From: Cyanobacterium aponinum PCC 10605
Lineage (GTDB): Bacteria > Cyanobacteriota > Cyanobacteriia > Cyanobacteriales > Cyanobacteriaceae
Assembly: GCF_000317675.1 (NCBI RefSeq)
Contig: NC_019776.1
Span: 2,294,001-2,358,000, forward strand
Direction of reading: 5' to 3'
Length of the DNA stretch: 64,000 nucleotides
A program made the position numbers and the translations under genes. Within the stretch, counting starts at the first letter, position 1. Every line of letters begins with the position of its first letter. The notes below the pieces were generated by a model, which saw only the letters and a program-made list of their open reading frames with translations, searched no databases and was not told where the DNA came from. Below are positions 2,951-61,565 of this stretch, piece after piece.

Positions 2951-3036
2951 ATTACTTATTTCTCCCTCTCCCCTCATCCCCTTATCTCCTCATCCCCTAA
3001 ACACCCTCTCACCTGAAACCTGACACCTACCTGTTT

Positions 3037-5055
3037 TTAAGCCGCTAAGACTTGGTGAGAAACCTTATCAGGGACTATTTCTAAGTGGTCATATTGCCAG
3101 TTAAAAAAGCCTACTCCCAAAGAAAGCGATCGCAATTCAATAATAAAATCTTGCATTTCTCCCTGGGGAAGATAAGCATTGACTTGATCCCAATTTTTCC
3201 AATCCCTTACACCCTCATAACCAAGAATTTGTCCCCGATGGGCAGAAACCAGTTGCAAAACCTTTGATGTAAACTCATTGGGAGTGAAAATGTCCACCAA
3301 TAAAACAGGTTCAAGCAAAATAGGATCACACTGTACAATTCCCTCTGTCATGGCAATACGAGCGGCTTGTTTAAAAGCCTGTTCAGAACTATCTACAGAG
3401 TGATAAGAGCCATCGGTAAGGGTTACATCCACATCTACCACAGGATAACCTAAAGGACCTTGTTGTAAATATTCTCTAACTCCTGTTTCTACCCCCGGAA
3501 TATACTGTTTGGGAACAACTCCCCCCACAATGGTTTCATGGAATTGGAAACCTTCGCCCCTTGCTAGAGGTTTGATGTCTAAATAAACATCTCCAAACGC
3601 CCCATGGCCACCACTTTGATGCTTATAACGTCCATGAACTTGTGTGGATTTGCGGATAGTTTCTTTATAGGGAATTTTGGGATTTTGTGCCACCATAGAC
3701 AGGTTATATTTATTGCTTAGTCGCTCCAGTGTTACCTGCAAATGAATTGCTCCTTGTCCCCAAAGTATTACTTCATGGGTGTTTTCATCTTGTTCCCATT
3801 TGAGAGAGGGATCTTCTTCTAAGATTTTTGCGATCGCACCTGAAATTTTCACTTCATCCCGACGATGTTCGGCTGTCACTGCTTGGGCATATACAGGGGG
3901 GATTAAATTCGCTTTTGGTAAGGGCTTGATTTCCTTCTCGGAATCGGTAAGAGTGTCTCCTGTTTTTATTCCTTCTAACCTTGCTAGAGCAACGATTTCC
4001 CCCACTTGTGCTATATTTTGAGATTTTTGTTGTCCTCCCATTAAACGATAAATACCGCCCACTCTGACCCCATTAAGAGTCATGCCATCTGTAATTTTTC
4101 CTTGCCATACCCGTACCAAAGATAACCTTCCTCCTTGGGGACTGTAATAAGTTTTTAATACCTGAGCAATAACAGGGCTATGGGCAACGGTTTTTAATCC
4201 TCTCCTTTCCGCAGTAATATTGGGAGATGGGGCTTCTTTGATGAGACAATCTAGTAGTGGACGCACCCCATAATCCTCTTTTGCCATACCAAAGAAAACA
4301 GGTACAATTAAATCTGCACTTAAGTCCTGCTTTAAATCTTTTAAAATTTCCTCTTTAGAGGGTTCAATATCTTCAATCAACTCTTCCAATAAATGATCAT
4401 CAAAATCAGCAAGGGTTTCTAGCATTTCCTGTCTTGCTTGGGTTTCTAACTCCTTAAGATTTTCAGGAAAAGGAACTAAATCTGCTTTATCTCCTTGATG
4501 ATAATGGTATGCTTGTTCTGTAATTAAATCAATATAGCCGATAATATCATGATCCTGTTTAATGGGATACTGTTGCGGTACCAGAGGACGACTAGATACA
4601 TCTTTAATGGCATTTAAAACATCCATAAAATCATCTTGCGATCGATCCATCTTATTGATATAAACTAGATGGGGAATCTGCCAATCATCAAGAAACTTAA
4701 ACAAAGGTGCGAGAGTTAAAACCCTACTTACAGAAGGTTCACAGACAACCACTGCCGTACCTGCTCCCACTAAAGCATTATAGGTTTCTTGCATAAATTC
4801 CACGGACCCCGGACAATCGAGAAAGGTAAAATTTATATCTTCATATTCCGTATAACCTGAACTGACTTCCACGCTCATTTGCCTGTTTTTTGCTTCGATG
4901 GAATTATCCCCAATGGTATTACCATCTTCCACACGTCCTTTTCGATTAATTGCTCCTGAAACGAATAATAAACTTTCTAACAAAGTGGTTTTCCCACTAG
5001 AATAAGGACCGACAATTGCCACATTTCTGGCAGGAGTTTCTACCCTATCATTCAT
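3037..5055 (-). CDS. Elongation factor G-like GTPase (EF-G paralogue)
   Basis: Translation-factor GTPase of 672 residues with EF-G architecture: G domain with P-loop GPYSSGKTT near residue 16, G4 NKMD near residue 135, then domain II (about 285-370), III, IV and V. The domain IV stretch SGGHGAFGDVYLDIKP is clear. The G3 motif reads DCPGS where canonical EF-G has DTPGH, so the catalytic-type His is Ser. This fits the EF-G-like/EF-G-2 paralogues rather than the essential FusA, and no rpsL, rpsG or tuf genes flank it. Its physiological role is not established. ATG at 5055 on the minus strand follows an AAGGAG-like sequence. Confidence 0.87.
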   Translation of the reverse strand: MNDRVETPARNVAIVGPYSSGKTTLLESLLFVSGAINRKGRVEDGNTIGDNSIEAKNRQMSVEVSSGYTEYEDINFTFLDCPGSVEFMQETYNALVGAGTAVVVCEPSVSRVLTLAPLFKFLDDWQIPHLVYINKMDRSQDDFMDVLNAIKDVSSRPLVPQQYPIKQDHDIIGYIDLITEQAYHYHQGDKADLVPFPENLKELETQARQEMLETLADFDDHLLEELIEDIEPSKEEILKDLKQDLSADLIVPVFFGMAKEDYGVRPLLDCLIKEAPSPNITAERRGLKTVAHSPVIAQVLKTYYSPQGGRLSLVRVWQGKITDGMTLNGVRVGGIYRLMGGQQKSQNIAQVGEIVALARLEGIKTGDTLTDSEKEIKPLPKANLIPPVYAQAVTAEHRRDEVKISGAIAKILEEDPSLKWEQDENTHEVILWGQGAIHLQVTLERLSNKYNLSMVAQNPKIPYKETIRKSTQVHGRYKHQSGGHGAFGDVYLDIKPLARGEGFQFHETIVGGVVPKQYIPGVETGVREYLQQGPLGYPVVDVDVTLTDGSYHSVDSSEQAFKQAARIAMTEGIVQCDPILLEPVLLVDIFTPNEFTSKVLQLVSAHRGQILGYEGVRDWKNWDQVNAYLPQGEMQDFIIELRSLSLGVGFFNWQYDHLEIVPDKVSHQVLAA

Positions 5056-5263
5056 AATTTATACTCCTTTTCTATTTTTCAACGAGACATTAATTAGACA
5101 GTTTTTTCTCTGAGAATTTAATTATTATTTATCTTTTTTATGGTTCTCATATTTTCACAGTAGCTTATATTTTGATTAATTTACCAGAATATTTTATTTA
5201 TCTTAAACATAAAAAAAAATGTAAACTTTTCTATATTTTCTCTTAACAAATGTAAAGAAATAA

Positions 5264-5306
5264 GGCTCTCTTACTTTAGGTATCTAAATTATTGATTAGG
5301 GTAGGC
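5264..5306. repeat. Truncated MITE-A end
   Basis: GGCTCTCTTACTTTAGGTAT followed by CTAAATTATTGATTAGGGTAGGC matches the left end of the complete element at 7742. No opposite end is found before tex at 5504, so this looks like a remnant. Confidence 0.6.
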
Positions 5307-5361
5307 AATGGGCAATTAGTGAATAGTTGATAATTCAAAACTTCGTTCACGACTGAAAGAA

Positions 5362-5396: not shown

Positions 5397-5503
5397 CTTC
5401 CCCCTCTCAATCGCTCCCCTCATAATCACCTCCCCTGAACTCGGAACATTGAACTCAAGTTTTCGTTTTAGTGTAAAATTTTAGCAAAAAGTCCTATTAG
5501 CCT

Positions 5504-7675
5504 ATGCTCAATATTCCTCAAGTTATAGCTTCTGAATTATCCCTCAATCTCGAAAACGTCGAAAGTGCCTTAGAGTTGCTTAATGAAGGGGCAACCATCC
5601 CCTTTATCGCTCGTTACCGCAAAGAACGCACTGGGTCACTCAATGAGATACAATTAAGAGACATTCAAGAGCGTTTTAATTATCTCCAAGAATTAGAGCA
5701 AAGAAGGCAATTTATCTTAGATGCGATCGCCTCTCAAAACAAACTCAGTGAACCCTTAAAGGCTCAAATTACCGCTTGTTTACAAAAAAATGAACTCGAA
5801 GACCTTTATTTGCCTTATAAACCTAAAAAGAGAACCCGTGCTACTATTGCCAGAGAAAAAGGTTTAACTTCCTTAGCAGAGTGGGTTAAAAATCAAAATC
5901 AATCGGAAGATGGGCAAAAGGCAAAAGGCAAGAGACAAGAGGTAATTTCTTTGAGTCAAGAAGCCGAAAAATATGTCTCTGATAGTGTTAACAGCAGTGA
6001 AGAAGCCTTAAGCGGTGCAAGGGATATTTTAGCGGAAGAAATCGCCGAAAAAGCTGAATTAAGAGCCTATTTGAGAGAATTTATTTTGAATAACGGTACT
6101 TTTGTCTCTCAGATAAAAAAAGATTACCCCGAAGGAAGCACAAAGTATGAGATGTATCGTAGTTTTACCTGTAAATTAACCAAAATCGCCCCCCATAACA
6201 TTCTTGCTTTATATCGAGGAGAAGGAGAAAAAATCCTCAGTTTAGACGTTGATTTTGAGGAAGAAAGGGCAATTAACTATTTAGAGTCCAAGATAATTAA
6301 AACCAAAAACCCTGAAATTAAGCAATTTTACCAAGAAACTATTAAAGATAGCTTTAATCGCTTATTAAAACCAGCTTTACTGCGAGATGTGCGTTCAGAA
6401 ATGAAAATATGGGCAGATACAGAGTCAATTAAAACCTTTGAGGCAAATTTGCGAGAATTGTTATTATCTCCTCCTGCAGGGATGAAACCGACAATGGGTA
6501 TTGATCCGGGGTTTCGTACGGGTTGCAAAGTGGCGATTCTTTCCGAAACAGGGCAATTTTTAGAGTATCAGGCAATATTTCCTCATAATGGGTCAGAAAA
6601 AAGAAATCTTGCCAAAAATAGCTTAAAAAAACTAATCCAAAAATATCATATTGCTTTAATTGCCATTGGTAACGGCACTGCTTCCCGGGAAACCGATGAT
6701 TTTGTCACGGAGGTGTTAAAGGAGATTGACACTAAACCCATCAAGGTGATGGTGAATGAGTCTGGTGCGTCTATTTATTCCGCTAGTGATGTGGCGATTA
6801 GTGAATTTCCTGATTTGGATGTCACCGTCAGAGGTGCGATTAGTATTGGTAGGAGGTTACAAGATCCCCTTGCCGAATTGGTGAAAATTGACCCAAAATC
6901 CATTGGAATAGGGCAGTATCAACACGATGTGGATCAAAAATTATTGAAACAAAAATTAGAAGAAACTGTCGAAAGTTGTGTTAATTATGTGGGAGTTGAT
7001 TTGAATACTGCTTCTAAGGAATTGTTAGTTTTTGTCTCTGGAATTAATAGCACTATTGCGAATAATATTGTGCAGTATCGCAATGAAAAAGGGGTATTTA
7101 AAAATAGAAAAGAATTACTAAAAGTTAAGAAATTAGGGTCAAAAACTTTTGAATTGGCAGGAGGTTTTTTACGTATTCGAGACGGTGATAATCCTTTGGA
7201 TAATACTGCTGTGCATCCAGAAAGTTATCCCATTGTTAAAAAAATTTCTAGTGATTTAAAAGTACCTTTAACGGAAATAACTCAACTTAATCAACATCTG
7301 AAAAAACTAGATTTAAAGCAGTATATCACTGACGAAATTGGCTTACCTACCCTACAAGATATTATTCAAGAATTGGAAAAACCCGGGCGCGATCCTCGTG
7401 CTGAATTTCAGTATGCTACTTTTAAGGAGGGTGTCACGGAAATTACCGATTTAAAAGAAGGTATGATTTTAGAGGGAGTTGTCACTAATGTGGTTAATTT
7501 TGGTGCTTTCGTGGATATAGGTGTGCATCAAGATGGTTTAGTACATATATCCCAAATGTGCGATCGCTTCGTGAGTGATGTTACAGAGGTTGTCAGAGTC
7601 GGGCAGGTTGTAAAAGTAAGAGTGTTAGAGGTTAACGAAAAATTAAAACGTATCGGTTTATCTATGAAGAATTAA
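5504..7675 (+). CDS. tex: Tex-family RNA-binding transcription accessory protein
   Basis: Tex/Spt6-like protein of 723 residues. Domains in order: Tex N-terminal helical domain (about 1-200, with the hallmark EGATIPFIARYRKERTGSL), YqgF/RNase H-like domain starting at MGIDPGFRTGCK (about 330-460), helix-hairpin-helix region (about 490-560) and a C-terminal S1 RNA-binding domain (about 650-720, GVVTNVVNFGAFVDIG). It acts in transcription or RNA metabolism by binding nucleic acid. An odd feature is the stretch DGQKAKGKRQE at about residues 136-146, encoded by GGGCAAAAGGCAAAAGGCAA, a heptamer-type repeat otherwise seen between genes. It looks like an in-frame repeat insertion. Confidence 0.93.
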   Translation: MLNIPQVIASELSLNLENVESALELLNEGATIPFIARYRKERTGSLNEIQLRDIQERFNYLQELEQRRQFILDAIASQNKLSEPLKAQITACLQKNELEDLYLPYKPKKRTRATIAREKGLTSLAEWVKNQNQSEDGQKAKGKRQEVISLSQEAEKYVSDSVNSSEEALSGARDILAEEIAEKAELRAYLREFILNNGTFVSQIKKDYPEGSTKYEMYRSFTCKLTKIAPHNILALYRGEGEKILSLDVDFEEERAINYLESKIIKTKNPEIKQFYQETIKDSFNRLLKPALLRDVRSEMKIWADTESIKTFEANLRELLLSPPAGMKPTMGIDPGFRTGCKVAILSETGQFLEYQAIFPHNGSEKRNLAKNSLKKLIQKYHIALIAIGNGTASRETDDFVTEVLKEIDTKPIKVMVNESGASIYSASDVAISEFPDLDVTVRGAISIGRRLQDPLAELVKIDPKSIGIGQYQHDVDQKLLKQKLEETVESCVNYVGVDLNTASKELLVFVSGINSTIANNIVQYRNEKGVFKNRKELLKVKKLGSKTFELAGGFLRIRDGDNPLDNTAVHPESYPIVKKISSDLKVPLTEITQLNQHLKKLDLKQYITDEIGLPTLQDIIQELEKPGRDPRAEFQYATFKEGVTEITDLKEGMILEGVVTNVVNFGAFVDIGVHQDGLVHISQMCDRFVSDVTEVVRVGQVVKVRVLEVNEKLKRIGLSMKN
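5909..5942 (+). repeat. Heptamer-type repeat inserted in frame in tex
   Basis: GGGCAAAAGGCAAAAGGCAA followed by GAGACAAGAGG resembles the intergenic GGCAAGA/GGCAATA units at 7786-7810 and the reverse units at 55960-55990. It leaves the tex frame intact and adds a basic KAKGKRQE segment. Confidence 0.5.
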
Positions 7676-7741
7676 TGACTAGGGTCTGCTGAGTAAATCA
7701 AAAATCCATCAGACAAAAACTGATTTCGATGAAAAAAGTAT

Positions 7742-7916
7742 GGCTCTATCAGTTTGAGTATGTAAATTATTAGTTAGGGTAGGCTGAAAGGCAAGAGGCA
7801 ATAGGCAATAGGGGATTATTAAATAATAATTTATAAACTTTTAGTTTTTATTTTACTATAAACACTATTTAGGAAGTTATTTTCTATTAATTCATCATAA
7901 CCACTGTAGAAGAACC
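7742..7916. mobile_element. MITE-A copy 1 (175 bp, 8-bp target duplication)
   Basis: Non-coding element with imperfect inverted ends: GGCTCTATCAGTTTGAGTAT on the left, CATAACCACTGTAGAAGAACC on the right. It is flanked by perfect 8-bp direct repeats AAAAGTAT at 7734-7741 and 7917-7924. The interior carries GGCAAGA/GGCAATA heptamers and an AT-rich core shared, in inverted orientation, with 39827-39992. GGCTCT ends and 8-bp duplications match what is known of the ISL3 family, so mobilisation by an ISL3-type transposase is a reasonable inference. No transposase is in the window. Confidence 0.8.
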
Positions 7917-8006
7917 AAAAGTATTGAAAAATAGATTGCTAAAAAATATTAAAACTATGATTAAGAAAATTGTTTTTAAATCAATTATAAAGTTCCTACT
8001 TTAATT

Positions 8007-33658: not shown

Positions 33659-33700
33659 TTCTGATTAGCTTTTAATTCTTTTTTTATTAAAAGGGCTAGG

Positions 33701-33744
33701 GGCAAACCCCCCTTTATCCCTCTCGAGAGGGGGGAGGGCAAAGG
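33701..33744. repeat. GC-rich palindromic repeat, C6/G6 family, copy 2
   Basis: GGCAAACCCCCCTTTATCCC followed by TCTCGAGAGGGGGGAGGGCAAAGG. It directly abuts the MITE-B copy at 33750. Confidence 0.75.
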
Positions 33745-39802: not shown

Positions 39803-39826
39803 TTCCTTAATTTTAAAAAACTTAAA

Positions 39827-39992
39827 GCTCTTCAGAGTGTGGTTATAATAAATTAAGAGAAACAGGACTTCCATAACCTTTATTGAATAGTGTTTATAGC
39901 AAAATAAAAACTAAAAGTTTATAGGTTATTATTTAATAATCTCCTATTGCCTACCCTAACTAATAATTTACATACTCAAACTGATAGAGCCA
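39827..39992. mobile_element. MITE-A copy 2 (166 bp, 8-bp target duplication)
   Basis: Opposite orientation to the 7742 copy. Begins GCTCTTCAGAGTGTGGTTAT and ends CATACTCAAACTGATAGAGCC(A). Flanked by perfect 8-bp repeats AACTTAAA at 39819-39826 and 39993-40000. The interior shares GAATAGTGTTTATAGCAAAA and AGTTTATAGGTTATTATTTA with the 7742 copy. Boundaries are certain to about one base. Confidence 0.82.
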
Positions 39993-40033
39993 AACTTAAA
40001 TCCTAATTCTTAACTTTTTTTCTTTATGACATC

Positions 40034-41125: not shown

Positions 41126-42160
41126 ATGATTAAATGTAAACAAGTGCAAGAACTCAGCACACAGGAAATAACCCTTCCCACAGTTTCTACACCGAGTAAG
41201 GTTATGGTAGTAGATGATCAACCTTTGAGTTTACTTCACGCCGTTGATTTAGTGCAATATCAAGGTTATAGAGTGGTAGAAGTTAATGATAGTCGTCAAG
41301 CATTAAAAATTGCTTTTGAAGAACAACCCGACGTTATTCTTGCCGATGTAGTAATGCCAGAAATTAACGGTGTGGAATTGACTAAGCATCTAAAACTCGA
41401 ACCTCATACTCAATCAATCCCCGTTTTATTGATGTCTGTTACAGAAGAATCCCAACTGCGTCATCAAGCTTTGAAAGCAGGAGCAGAAGATGTAGTATTA
41501 AAACCACTCGATCATACTGTTTTGTACCCAAAACTCAAAAATCTCGCTCAACAAAAACGCCTCAATGAAGTTCTAAATCAAACTCAAAAAGTTTTGCTCA
41601 ATCTCGCCACTTTAATAAAAGCAAAATCTGGTTATGACTATCAATCATCATTTCAGTTAGCAAATTTAGTTAGAGGTTTTGCTGAGTATTTAGAATTACC
41701 TCATAGCGATATAGAAGATTTAGTATTCGCCGCTTATATTCATGATATAGGAACAGTGAGTATTCCCGATTATATTTTCCACAAACATGGAGCATTAACA
41801 TCAGAAGAAAAAGAAATAATTCATCAACACTGTGTTATCGGAGAACAAATTTGCCAACCTTTACACAATCGTCCTAATTTGTTAAAAATAATTCGTCATC
41901 ATCACGAAAAATATGATGGTAGTGGTTATCCAGATGGTTTAACTATGGAACAAATTCCTTATCTTGCACAAATTTTTCAATTAGTTGATATATACTATGC
42001 TCTAACCAAAAATCGTCAATCCAAAACCACTTACACTCCTTCATCTGCCCTAGACATTCTTGAAGAAGAAGTGATCAAAGGGTGGCGTAATCCTAAATTA
42101 TGGGAACAATTTCAGCAATTTATTTTTCTTCAGCTATCCTCTTTTTGCTTATCAGTTTAG
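41126..42160 (+). CDS. Response regulator with HD-GYP domain
   Basis: 344 residues. REC domain at about 25-145 with acidic DD at 30-31, phospho-acceptor D74 in ILADVVMPEING and the KPLD lysine. A coiled linker leads to an HD-GYP domain (about 165-335) with YIHDIGTVSIPDYIF, the HHHEKYDGSGYPDGL hallmark and QLVDIYYALT. HD-GYP domains hydrolyse cyclic di-GMP. The late DxxDAL element reads DIYYAL, losing the second Asp, so full activity is uncertain. No cognate kinase is adjacent. Confidence 0.87.
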   Translation: MIKCKQVQELSTQEITLPTVSTPSKVMVVDDQPLSLLHAVDLVQYQGYRVVEVNDSRQALKIAFEEQPDVILADVVMPEINGVELTKHLKLEPHTQSIPVLLMSVTEESQLRHQALKAGAEDVVLKPLDHTVLYPKLKNLAQQKRLNEVLNQTQKVLLNLATLIKAKSGYDYQSSFQLANLVRGFAEYLELPHSDIEDLVFAAYIHDIGTVSIPDYIFHKHGALTSEEKEIIHQHCVIGEQICQPLHNRPNLLKIIRHHHEKYDGSGYPDGLTMEQIPYLAQIFQLVDIYYALTKNRQSKTTYTPSSALDILEEEVIKGWRNPKLWEQFQQFIFLQLSSFCLSV

Positions 42161-42173
42161 AGAAATAATAAGT

Positions 42174-42276
42174 AACCTGAATTTTGGACAAGCTGAAAGC
42201 ACTATTTTTTCGTAGTCGGAAAACCTTATAGCTTCTTAGAAATAACAATAAAATTGCCTTAACCCGAACTGACGTT
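42174..42276. mobile_element. MITE-B copy 3 (103 bp)
   Basis: Starts AACCTGAATTTTGGACAAGC and ends CCCGAACTGACGTT, with inverted ends. Flanks AAGT and AACT agree at three of four positions. The interior CGTAGTCGGAAAACCTTATA GCTTCTTAGAAATAAC is shared with 29641. Confidence 0.6.
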
Positions 42277-42350
42277 AACTAACTTCAGATCGGCTGATGG
42301 GCAAAAGTGCTTCGAGAAATAACCTTTACACTGTTGAAAATGTCATATCT

Positions 42351-45624: not shown

Positions 45625-45998
45625 TTATGGATTCCTCCAAATAATTTGTTAAATACTATTTATTAATTAAACCAGAAATTCCGTTAAGCTGGTCTGGAGA
45701 TTTGAAAAACCCTATTCAATTTCTTGCTGAGTTTTTTCTTTTAATCAGTATAACCTTTTGAGGTTACTTTTACTGATTATTTTTTGTCAGAGGCTTAACA
45801 TCTCTTCGGTGATTATTTTGCGATATGATGCTACCTTTCGCCTCATTTTCTTAATACTTTTTAACAATTTTCCTTTAATATATTTTGGTGAAGATAGGAA
45901 AAATAGCGAAAGAGATTAGGACAAAGGACAAAGGGCAAGGTCAAAGGAAATATATTTTAATGGGGAAACACAAGGAGTAAGGGTTAATATTTTTATTT
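45625..45998. other. Upstream region of apcA
   Basis: Probable apcA promoter and leader (45625-45900), with the hairpin at 45743-45779, followed by low-complexity GGACAAAGGGCAAGG-type repeats up to the MITE-B copy at 45999. No gene seen. Confidence 0.55.
45743..45779 (-). promoter_or_regulatory. Stem-loop in the apcA leader region
   Basis: AATCAGTA ... TACTGATT encloses TAACCT/AGGTTA, a two-part stem of 14 bp, 119-155 bases before the apcA ATG. On the + strand it is followed by ATTTTTTG, on the apcA strand by AAAAGAAAAAAC. On the apc transcript it could be a leader structure; as a terminator it would act on transcription coming from the other side. Confidence 0.4.
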
Positions 45999-46155
45999 AA
46001 CCTCAGTTCGGTTTTAGAATATCGGATAAGATTAGGTTTCAGGTGTCAGGTTTCAGGTTGCAGGTGTTAGGGAGAAGTTTATTTTTATTGAACACTTTTG
46101 CCTCTTGCCCTCTTCATCATCACTCATAGATGAAAATTTAGCCTGAACTTAGGTT
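45999..46155. mobile_element. MITE-B copy 4 (157 bp)
   Basis: Starts AACCTCAGTTCGGTTTTAGA and ends CCTGAACTTAGGTT. Contains CAGGTNN heptamers at 46036-46072 and the right-end block CATAGATGAAAATTTA shared with 55775. Flanks ATTT and ATAT agree at three of four positions. Confidence 0.65.
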
Positions 46156-46193
46156 ATATTGGACTCAGGAGACTTTGGCTATTTTGCAATGAA

Positions 46194-48309: not shown

Positions 48310-48656
48310 TTGAAAGCAAATTTAATTTTAATTGGGTCAGGTATAGAGTTTATCTAAATGCTAGGGTACATCATTTGTATTCGGAAATAGGTAATACTCG
48401 GATTTTGCTCCTAGCCAAAAATTGACGGGAGAAGTTAGGAAATAGGAAATAGAGAAGAGCAACAAGAATTGACACAAAAATTTGTTGAAATTGATTTTAA
48501 ATACATTTTTTATCAATTTAATAATTGATTGTTTCCGGGGAAATTTCGTTGATTAATAGGCTTCAATTCCTTATTTTTCAATACTTTTTTCATCAAACTC
48601 AAGTTAAGAATCTAGCTTTGCTTGAAAATTACATATAAAGATTTAATTATTAAAAA
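48310..48656. other. Intergenic region upstream of deoC
   Basis: AT-rich. GGAAATAGGAAATAGAGAAG is a short direct repeat of the 7-base type. No gene, tRNA or riboswitch recognised. Confidence 0.5.
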
Positions 48657-52562: not shown

Positions 52563-52646
52563 GTGAATAGTGAATAGTGAATAGTGAATAGTGAATAGTG
52601 AATAGTGAATAGTGAATAGTGAATAGTGAATAGTGAATAGTTGATA
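52563..52646. repeat. GTGAATA heptamer array (11 perfect tandem copies)
   Basis: Eleven uninterrupted copies of GTGAATA at 52563-52639, then a degenerate GTTGATA. Shorter versions of the same unit lie at 2868-2885, 5310-5330 and 26886-26912. Intergenic, and immediately followed by the palindromic repeat at 52660. Confidence 0.95.
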
Positions 52647-52659
52647 ATTAAAAACTCCC

Positions 52660-52701
52660 AACTCCTGTACGGGCGAATGGCCATTCGCCCCTAACTAACT
52701 C
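52660..52701. repeat. Palindromic repeat GGGCGAATGGCCATTCGCCC family, copy 4
   Basis: CTCCTGTAC, then the perfect 20-base palindrome GGGCGAATGGCCATTCGCCC, then CTAACTAACTC. Confidence 0.85.
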
Positions 52702-52789
52702 ATTTCCCCCTCACCCCCTCCCCTCATCACCTTATCCTCTTTTCTTCCCAAAACTTACCTCAACTTAACATTGGAAATAAGTGAGTAAC

Positions 52790-54257: not shown

Positions 54258-54449
54258 GGCTCTTCAGAGTGTGGTTATGATAAATAAAAAGCAAGAGGCA
54301 AACCCCCCTTTATCCCTAGGGCTGTTTTATTTTCGAGAAAGAAAAAAGAGCGGGAGATAGGGGGAGGGCAATAGTGTTTAAATATTATTTAATGAGTGTG
54401 AGAGTGTCTCCCCTAACCAATAATTTACATGACGAGAAGCAATAGAGAC
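54258..54449. mobile_element. MITE-A copy 3 (192 bp, 8-bp target duplication, nested repeat)
   Basis: Begins GGCTCTTCAGAGTGTGGTTA and ends CCTAACCAATAATTTACATG ACGAGAAGCAATAGAGAC. Flanked by perfect 8-bp repeats GTTGAGAT at 54250-54257 and 54450-54457. The interior contains an expanded copy of the C6/G6 repeat at 54297-54370. It ends 78 bases before prfB. Confidence 0.8.
54297..54370. repeat. C6/G6 repeat copy 3, expanded, inside MITE-A
   Basis: GGCAAACCCCCCTTTATCCC ... TAGGGGGAGGGCAA, with about 35 foreign bases between the arms. Nested in the 54258-54449 element. Confidence 0.65.
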
Positions 54450-54527
54450 GTTGAGATTCGACAATAGTCAGTTTTTTTGATAATATCTGGTGTTGTCGGT
54501 AATTTTTTTCACAATTATTCAATAGCA

Positions 54528-55774: not shown

Positions 55775-56031
55775 AACCTCAGTTCGGTTTAAGAATATTG
55801 GATAAGGGTAGGTGTCAGGTTTCAGGTTGCAGGTTGCAGGTGTTGAGAGAAAGTAATGAGTAACAAATAATGAGTGTTCGGGGTTTTTAATTCCTAATTC
55901 CTAATTCTTAATTTTTCCTTTGCCCTCCCCCCTCTCGAGGGGGGATATAAGGGGGGTTTGCCTCTTGCCTCTTGCCTCTTGCCTTTTTTTCTCCATCATT
56001 CATAGATGAAAATTTATCCCGAACTCAGGTT
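55775..56031. mobile_element. MITE-B copy 5 (257 bp, 4-bp target duplication)
   Basis: Starts AACCTCAGTTCGGTTTAAGA and ends CCCGAACTCAGGTT. Flanked by AATC at 55771-55774 and 56032-56035. Contains CAGGTNN heptamers (55808-55842), an inverted C6/G6 repeat copy (55920-55960), GCCTCTT heptamers (55960-55982) and the CATAGATGAAAATTTA right-end block. It lies just upstream of the Hsp70 operon. Confidence 0.72.
55920..55960. repeat. GC-rich palindromic repeat, C6/G6 family, copy 4 (inverted)
   Basis: TTGCCCTCCCCCCTCTCGAG followed by GGGGGATATAAGGGGGGTTTGCC, the reverse of copy 1, nested in MITE-B copy 5. Confidence 0.75.
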
Positions 56032-59117: not shown

Positions 59118-61565
59118 ATGGGTTTATTTGATTTTATTGCTAAAACAAAAGCAGTTTTTGAAAATTCAGAGAAAAGTCAGAAAAAGTTTTTAGAGGCGAA
59201 GGAATTAGCTAAGTTAAAAAAACTGGAGGAAGCGATTAAGCTAGGGGAAGAAATTTTATCTTTATGGAAAGAAAATCCCTCTTGGCGTGAGCAAATAGTT
59301 AGAGAAATGTCTGGGGGTTATTTATTAGAAAATGTCAAAACAAAATTAACAGAATGGCGATTAAATCTGAATAAAGCTAGGCACTATATAAATCAAGGAA
59401 AAAATTTAATTGAACAAGATAAAAATGATCCTTTTGATAATAGTTTTTTAACTAAAGCCCTAGAATATTTAGAAAAATCTAATGAAATTTTATATGATAC
59501 TGAATCTACTGTTACGGCTCAAGTTTTAAAGGATAAAATTAATAGTAGAAATAAATTTCAGTCTTTGTATCAAAAAGGGAAAAATTTAGTTGATACGGGA
59601 TTTTTCAAAGAAGGATTACCCTACTTATTAGATGCACAAAAAATATATAGAGTTGCTGATTTAGATAAAGAAATTATTGAATGTGAATATCAAATAAAAC
59701 TACAGATTCAATATGAAAATGACTTAAAAATTATTAAATCCCTTGCTCAACAAGGCAATTTCATTTCTGCCTATAATCAATTAGAAGTTGCCTTAGATAA
59801 ATTTCAGCGTCAAGATGGGAATGAATTAAAAGAAAAATTGCGGATAGTTATTGATGCGAAAACTGACTATCGACAAGGTTTAATGGCTGAAAAAATTGAT
59901 AATCTAACTCTTGCTAAAAAACAGTATTTATCTGCTTTATCTAAATTACCCCAATTAAAAGATGCTTCTTATCGATTAGCATTGATTGACATCAAACAAC
60001 ATAATTTTACCTCTGCTCTATCTTATTTAAAAAATTTTCAGACAGAAAGGGCAAATTATTTACGGGGTTTTATTTATCTACAAAAAAATGACTATCAAAA
60101 TGCAGTCAAAGAATGGAAATTAGTTAATAATCCAACCATTAATACTAGCAAAGAATCATTAAAAAGTTTAATTGAAAGAGAAAAAATACAAATCATTAAA
60201 AAAATTGAAGATTTAGTTAAAGAATCTCAATATCAAGAGGCAAAAAATTACTGTCAAAATTTCCTTAAACAATACGGTTATGATCCCAAAATTGATCATA
60301 ATTTAAACAAACATATCCAACCAGCTTTACAACATCAACTATGGCAATCTCAAAATTTAATTAAGATTATAAATCAATTAGAGCAAGAATTTAAACAGAG
60401 TCCGAATTTAACCACTTTACATAATATGGCGATCGCACTTTATTATCAAGCCCAACTAGATGAAAACTATATAGAAAGATGGATTAATTGTTGGATGACA
60501 GTATTGTTAAATATTAACAAAAGTGAGGTTTTCCAGAATATATCTTGGTTGAATATCAATGAGATTAACTATGAAAAAATAAGAGAAGATTTGATTAAAA
60601 TAGTAGAAGGTGCGATCGACAAATATAAAGATAATAACCTAGATAAATACTATCAGCTTCGAGATGTATTGAGAAGAGAAAATCTAGCCTTAGAATTAAT
60701 GGGCAATCCACCCCAGATGGGAATAAAAATCAAACAAATATTTATCACTCCCGGATTTTATTTACAACATCAAACACAATTAAAAAGTATTCAATTAAAA
60801 ACAGATAAACTGTCAACCTTATTTACTAATTATGGTTTAGCCGTTGCCGCTTGTTTGAAAAACGACACAGAAAGGGCGATTAAAATTAAACCATCTCAAC
60901 AACATTCATCGGGAGTAGAAAAACTAGCCTATCATTTAATAAACTATTATGAGGGGTGTTATTATCTACAACATCATAGCTGGAGAAAAGCAAAAAATCC
61001 CTTAGAAATTTCTCAAACAGAAATAAAAAATAATCATGATTGGGTAGAAAATATTAATAAATTATGTGAAAAACAAAGACAAAAAATAGAGGATTTAAAA
61101 GAGCATTTAGAATTTGCTCAATTCTGGTATGATTTATTAAAATCAAATCAATCTGCCAGCTATTTAGCGGAGTTTAAAGCGAGAGAAATTTCTCAACAAG
61201 TAGCCGATGAAAAAATATCTTTTTCCCAAGCTATTAATAAACTAAAAGATGTACAAAATATTGATAGAAATAACCCTTTAGTTATAGATTTACTGAGTAG
61301 ATTAGAATATAGTCGAGAAGCAGAAGAAATTGATAAACTACTCAAACAAAATCGCTTTGAAGATGCCGTAAGAAAAGCAAGATATTCTTCCAATCAAGAA
61401 ATTAAATATTTAGTAGCTTCTATTTGTGTAGAAATTGCATTAAAGGGTGCAGAAGCGAGGGAATTAGACTGGGAAACTTTACAACAATTAGGAAGATGGG
61501 CTTATCAAATTTGTCCTCATGAGCCTAATTTTCGAGAGGTTTATCGTGCATTAAAAATTATTTAA
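59118..61565 (+). CDS. Large helical-repeat (TPR-like) protein
   Basis: 815 residues, almost all helical with TPR-type periodicity. YLEKSNEILYDTEST and GFFKEGLPYLLDAQKIYRVADL are early units; DNLTLAKKQYLSALSKLPQLKDASYRLALI and FTSALSYLKNFQTERANYLRGFIYLQKNDYQNAVKEWKLV (around 255-330) are the clearest. No membrane segment or signal peptide. TPR scaffolds often bind chaperones, fitting its place between the LysM protein and the J-like protein. Its precise role is unknown. Confidence 0.75.
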   Translation: MGLFDFIAKTKAVFENSEKSQKKFLEAKELAKLKKLEEAIKLGEEILSLWKENPSWREQIVREMSGGYLLENVKTKLTEWRLNLNKARHYINQGKNLIEQDKNDPFDNSFLTKALEYLEKSNEILYDTESTVTAQVLKDKINSRNKFQSLYQKGKNLVDTGFFKEGLPYLLDAQKIYRVADLDKEIIECEYQIKLQIQYENDLKIIKSLAQQGNFISAYNQLEVALDKFQRQDGNELKEKLRIVIDAKTDYRQGLMAEKIDNLTLAKKQYLSALSKLPQLKDASYRLALIDIKQHNFTSALSYLKNFQTERANYLRGFIYLQKNDYQNAVKEWKLVNNPTINTSKESLKSLIEREKIQIIKKIEDLVKESQYQEAKNYCQNFLKQYGYDPKIDHNLNKHIQPALQHQLWQSQNLIKIINQLEQEFKQSPNLTTLHNMAIALYYQAQLDENYIERWINCWMTVLLNINKSEVFQNISWLNINEINYEKIREDLIKIVEGAIDKYKDNNLDKYYQLRDVLRRENLALELMGNPPQMGIKIKQIFITPGFYLQHQTQLKSIQLKTDKLSTLFTNYGLAVAACLKNDTERAIKIKPSQQHSSGVEKLAYHLINYYEGCYYLQHHSWRKAKNPLEISQTEIKNNHDWVENINKLCEKQRQKIEDLKEHLEFAQFWYDLLKSNQSASYLAEFKAREISQQVADEKISFSQAINKLKDVQNIDRNNPLVIDLLSRLEYSREAEEIDKLLKQNRFEDAVRKARYSSNQEIKYLVASICVEIALKGAEARELDWETLQQLGRWAYQICPHEPNFREVYRALKII

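Follow-up and report, generated by a model that had tools for sequence, protein, structure and literature searches.

MITE copies in the window

The window analysed here is a stretch of 64,000 nt from the genome of Cyanobacterium aponinum PCC 10605 (G000). It holds three complete copies of a MITE and one fragment; strands refer to the window, and G001 is a genome of the same genus.

About 5264 to 5325, minus strand: one-ended MITE fragment that keeps just the L end and sits where synteny with G001 breaks
7734 to 7741, unstranded: 8-bp target duplication flanking copy 1 on the left, AAAAGTAT
7742 to 7916, minus strand: MITE copy 1, 175 bp, R2 end GGTTCTTCTACAGTGG right and L1 end GGCTCTATCAGTTTGAG left
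7917 to 7924, unstranded: 8-bp target duplication flanking copy 1 on the right, AAAAGTAT
39818 to 39825, unstranded: 8-bp target duplication flanking copy 2 on the left, AAACTTAA, present as a single copy in the empty site of G001
39826 to 39991, plus strand: MITE copy 2, 166 bp, R1 end AGCTCTTCAGAGTGTGG left and L1 end right, missing from the orthologous site of G001
39992 to 39999, unstranded: 8-bp target duplication flanking copy 2 on the right, AAACTTAA
54250 to 54257, unstranded: 8-bp target duplication flanking copy 3 on the left, GTTGAGAT
54258 to 54449, plus strand: MITE copy 3, 192 bp, R1 end left and L2-like end right, missing from the orthologous site of G001
54450 to 54457, unstranded: 8-bp target duplication flanking copy 3 on the right, GTTGAGAT

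The preliminary description of this DNA had reported three complete copies with 8-bp duplications and a truncated copy at 5264. All are present: the three duplications are perfect at 8 bp, with identical flanking repeats on both sides of copies 1 and 3, and the truncated copy retains one end alone. Copy 2 had been placed at 39827–39992; the element itself stands, while homology shifts its coordinates by one base to 39826–39991 with the duplication AAACTTAA. Because nine bases match at this site, the repeat given earlier, AACTTAAA, is the AAACTTAA repeat displaced by one base. The first base of copy 2 is A where G is expected by homology (AGCTCTTC). The elements had also been called GGCTCT-ended, which applies to one terminus of each complete copy but not to the other, which reads GGTTCT, AGCTCT and GTCTCT in copies 1, 2 and 3.

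The interior of copy 3 is largely dissimilar to those of copies 1 and 2. Within it, at window positions 54289–54320, lies a 26-base stretch (AAGAGGCAAACCCCCCTTTATCC type) that recurs outside MITEs, for example near 55942–55986 and 33688–33721.

Copy number, ends and targets in the genome

A genome-wide count of copies had been proposed. With copy 1 as query we obtained 52 matches in its own genome, 41 of them at 80 bits or more and many almost full length. Searches with end patterns yielded 69 matches for the R1 type, 45 for L1 and 78 for L2, compared with 8, 0 and 0 for backward-pattern controls. The exact end patterns gave 0 matches in GTDB genome contigs and IMG/VR, which may lack entries for this genome or for one very close to it. 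For pairing, we used 594,419 bases of G000 in stretches picked around end matches (about 14% of the genome), allowing up to 9 mismatches per end and up to 14 combined, with the ends 120–460 bp apart. This sample contained 100 MITE copies with both ends.

The transposase-side end occurs in two types, R1 (GGTTCTTCAGAGTGTGGTTATGAT) and R2 (GGTTCTTCTACAGTGGTTATGAT), as does the opposite end, L1 (GGCTCTATCACTTTGAGTATGTAA) and L2 (GGCTCTATCACTTCTCGTCGTGTAA). All four combinations are found among the 100 paired copies: R1L2 in 38, R1L1 in 26, R2L2 in 19 and R2L1 in 17. R2 is thus carried by 36 of the 100, and within the window by copy 1 only. L and R ends share only GGYTCT and a few subterminal bases, forming imperfect inverted repeats as in ISL3 elements. 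While the ends are constant, the interiors vary between copies with the same ends.

Duplications are perfect (8/8) in 65 of the 100 paired copies, match at 7 bases in 14, at 6 in 7 and at 5 or fewer in 14. When the same flanks were mispaired 200 times, the number of perfect 8-bp duplications expected by chance averaged 0.69 per 100, with a maximum of 4. The 21 copies with six or fewer matching bases would be old, rearranged or mispaired. Copies with a perfect duplication are 161–426 bp long, mainly 166–203 bp, with those of the window at 166–192 bp. Their duplications are AT-rich, with 6.9% G+C compared to 28.8% in the 100-bp flanks (65 copies). The target is also biased in element orientation, with A at position 1 (48/65) and T at positions 5 (46/65) and 6 (53/65), and this bias is asymmetric.

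The family has several marks of a MITE. Its copies are short (below about 500 bp) and too small to encode a transposase, they are numerous with defined ends (100 pairs), their target duplication is of constant length (65/100 perfect at 8 bp), and orthologous sites are empty (three precisely, in G001). An autonomous IS would carry its own DDE transposase, and the MITEs have no coding capacity.

ATG-started ORFs of at least 100 aa occupy 69.8% of the DNA examined, and nevertheless 61 of the 65 copies with perfect duplications lie clear of them; the other 4 overlap partly. Such placement would fit copies kept as functional intergenic signals, either terminators or promoters, rather than passive MITEs. 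However, AT-rich targets and purifying selection could alternatively account for it. Folding of copy 2, the one copy folded, barely beats shuffled sequences (z −1.61, 13/200 as good), and copies that share ends differ in their interiors. We consider a retained signal function highly unlikely.

Comparison with a genome of the same genus

The 40 genomes searched include one other of this genus, G001. In the 455,018 bases of it that were compared, both flanks could be located for eight G000 sites. Of these, three are precisely empty in G001, three are occupied in both genomes, one lacks the element imprecisely and one is ambiguous. The empty sites, each with one target copy, correspond to the copies at 39826 and 54258 in the window and to C1:3147315. 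At the first two, the G001 flanks join with 9 and 8 shared bases, respectively, and no element. The single target is unchanged in two empty sites (GTTGAGAT and ATCTTTCT) and differs at two bases at the 39826 site; flanks of the empty sites are 93–97% identical between the two genomes.

The sites occupied in both genomes are 1323411, 2997060 and 3300318, the last with an identical duplication in G000 and G001. Since these three copies are common to both genomes, they are older, so the family appears to hold both older and younger copies. At site 3713640, G001 is without the element but has 23 other bases, and G000 shows no good duplication; at site 1016415, G001 has 822 bases. The site of copy 1 (7742) falls outside the comparison because G001 synteny stops at window position 7681, 61 bases before it.

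The preliminary description had called the transposition recent and had suggested comparing empty sites in related strains. The three single-target sites in G001 bear this out for insertions after the split from G001, whereas "recent" does not extend to the three shared copies. The pattern that it had named as contradicting this, the same copies with degraded duplications at every orthologous site of related strains, was not seen.

A different reading of this comparison is that the copies are old, immobile ancestral repeats and that the empty sites of G001 mark precise excisions rather than insertions in G000. The three copies at the same sites in G001 are compatible with it, as is the lack of a remaining transposase in either genome. 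On the other hand, the three empty sites have one target copy with otherwise continuous flanks (in a two-genome comparison), 65 of the 100 copies keep perfect duplications, and some copies are 98–99.5% alike. Ancestral immobility is very improbable on these grounds, and we retain insertion as the preferred account of the empty sites.

Window segments 3010–5263 and 5452–7681 match G001 in opposite orientations, and the synteny break between 5263 and 5452 lies at the one-ended fragment. A MITE-linked rearrangement at this break and at the one at 7681 is possible. Other dispersed repeats with many G001 matches lie at about 42159–42287, 45985–46160, 48470–48600 and 52630–52740 of the window, and are probably other small repeat families.

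Search for a transposase in the same genome

The preliminary description had stated that no transposase lies in the window. For ISL3 transposases this holds, and none was detected in the whole genome either: PF01610 (ISL3) was not found at E 0.01, and when G000 and G001 were searched at E 1 with a profile built from 16 ISL3 transposases of the same order, neither gave a match. Because neither genome yielded an ISL3 transposase, the MITE family looks orphaned.

In the search for an autonomous partner in its own genome, we also examined unpaired end matches for inward-reading ORFs. At L092, L077 and L104 these proved by Pfam to be an aminotransferase, an ABC1 kinase and a WecG-type glycosyltransferase. 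The ORFs beside 665879 and 428609 resemble by eye host genes, which we take them to be. Matches to AGCTCTACCGAGTGTGG at 59273, 1354835 and 1796262 were rejected as MITE ends and attributed to chance; the two inspected fall inside a pair of TnpB-like and TnpA-like ORFs, presumably of IS200/IS605 type. This pair is identical at L091 2207–3930 (C1:59.2–60.9 kb) and L098 2269–3992 (1354.8–1356.5 kb) of G000, and the match near 1796262 suggests a third copy there.

Relation of the MITE ends to ISL3 elements

Among 291 genomes of the same order, 155 carry an ISL3 transposase. To compare ends, we used an order-level set of 30 ISL3 loci (L191–L220) and a set of decayed same-family loci (L221–L226). 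Ends were scored as clean if they start with G and have at least 15/24 repeat bases and at least 7/8 duplication bases. By this rule 19 of the 30 order-level loci have clean ends, with 34 of the 38 ends beginning GGYTCT and a duplication of 8/8 in 18 loci and 7/8 in one. The MITEs share with ISL3 insertion sequences of both sets the GGYTCT-type imperfect ends and the 8-bp duplications; what sets the insertion sequences apart is a gene, intact or decayed, for a DDE transposase of about 400 aa.

An ISL3 source predicts a GGYTCT start, imperfect repeats and an 8-bp duplication, all of which the MITEs have, with R1 and L2 low on the full profile. On the profile of 35 distinct ISL3 ends, R2 scores 14.9, L1 6.9, R1 −0.2 and L2 −3.3. 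Scanned over the window (about 128,000 positions), it places MITE ends at ranks 5, 6 and 8, with three unrelated sites scoring above all of them.

A PF01610 transposase between or beside such ends in relatives is the further prediction, and this was found as an element in G010 and remnants in G008 and G005. The ISL3 profile search detected transposase remnants in 4 of 15 same-family genomes (G005, G008, G010 and G013), and the two fragments scanned match PF01610 at 4.1e-27 (G010) and 1.1e-29 (G008). The G010 element is 823 bp long, with a perfect 8-bp duplication ATAATTAA and ends GGCTCTTCTACAGTAGTTATGATAAATCTT and GGCTCTTCTACAGTGAGTATGACAAATTAA that are alike at 23/30 bases. Its transposase remnant lacks profile positions 131–290 between two matches, i.e. 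it carries an internal deletion, and contains further stops.

On its transposase side, the G010 element is identical to the end of MITE 3147315 at 27/27 bases and to the R2 consensus at 25/27. The same 27-base end occurs at 25–26/27 beside remnants L221 and L226 (G008) and L223 (G005); no MITE-like end was found at remnants L224 (G013) and L228–L230. On its own, the 27-base end recurs in G000, G001, G005, G006, G008, G010 and G012; G002 has a match to the opposite end. Because 8 of the 15 same-family genomes thus have a match to MITE ends, MITEs with such ends are spread through the family. The earlier assignment of the ends and 8-bp duplications to ISL3 is therefore supported by decayed same-family elements with closely similar ends, and the proposed search for an ISL3-type transposase with matching ends led to decayed ones in G010, G008 and G005, and to none in the genome itself.

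The ends could instead derive from another IS family that duplicates 8 bp, such as IS1595, with the likeness to ISL3 being convergent. The lack of a detected ISL3 transposase in the same genome fits such an origin, and Table 4 of PMC3852290 assigns to IS1595 an archaeal MITE that also has 8-bp repeats. PF12762, however, had 0 matches in the genome at E 0.01 (IS1595 was the only other family surveyed there), and in three genomes of the same family, ISL3 transposase remnants lie beside an almost identical end. The G010 element, in which such ends enclose ISL3 coding remnants, makes an origin in another IS family extremely unlikely.

Discussion

We conclude that these MITEs are very probably non-autonomous derivatives of ISL3 elements, moved in trans by a transposase that is now lost or was supplied from outside. 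This reading builds on the multiplicity of the copies, their ends, the 8-bp duplications, the AT-rich targets, the empty sites, the decayed ISL3 elements with similar ends, and the lack of a detected ISL3 transposase in G000. The MITEs, without a transposase of their own, would have arisen by internal deletion. An ISL3 transposase (DDE, PF01610) acting in trans would recognise the two imperfect ends through GGYTCT and a subterminal TATG-TAA-like block, excise the element and join it to an AT-rich 8-bp target, where repair would produce the 8-bp duplication. This enzyme may have been lost, or been only transiently supplied from outside, after some insertions that post-date the split from G001.

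Several points count against this account. The mobilising enzyme is not seen in the genomes where the insertions happened, since searches of G000 and G001 gave no ISL3 transposase. The tight match to ISL3 is to the R2 type, with R1 and L2 more distant, and three unrelated window sites score above the MITE ends on the ISL3 profile. No MITE-like end was found at L224 or L228–L230, and 21 of the 100 paired copies match at six or fewer duplication bases. There is a small chance that MITEs already orphaned went on inserting after the two species split, moved by an ISL3 element that visited transiently or cross-mobilised by a resident transposase from a different family.

Our literature searches turned up no publication that we recognised as describing the C. 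aponinum family. Nezha, to judge by the title of its publication, is likewise a MITE of cyanobacteria. Microcystis is presumably an order-level relative of C. aponinum. For Microcystis aeruginosa PCC 7806, the passages of PMC11448079 on its MITE describe a 187-nt ISL3-type element with 8-nt duplications and ends shared with ISL3 elements, so this kind of element and its link to ISL3 are already published. The likeness to our family lies in the length, the imperfect ends starting GGCTCTTCG, the 8-nt duplications and the ends held in common with ISL3 elements. The same passages place ISL3 transposases in the same genome and one copy inside the gene sbp, whereas G000 yielded no such transposase and has 61 of the 65 copies with perfect duplications outside ORFs. 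According to PMC12554700, the ends of the ISL3 element ISAeme19 are imperfect and 19 bp long, and its repeats are 8 bp. The ISMac21-related MITE of Methanosarcina acetivorans in Table 4 of PMC3852290 is ISL3-derived, as ours very probably are, and similar in length at 179 bp; it differs in being archaeal, with 6 copies, 7-bp repeats and a known autonomous partner. Partnerless MITE-like elements are also described in PMC3852290, with IS loss as the suggested cause.

The modest interest of the family lies in its orphan state and its family-wide spread. Here copies can be counted, empty sites used to date them, and their origin followed to decaying parent elements in sister genera, with no ISL3 transposase detected in the host. 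With such a family-wide case, the life cycle of MITEs in bacteria, from amplification through loss of the transposase to persistence, becomes testable.
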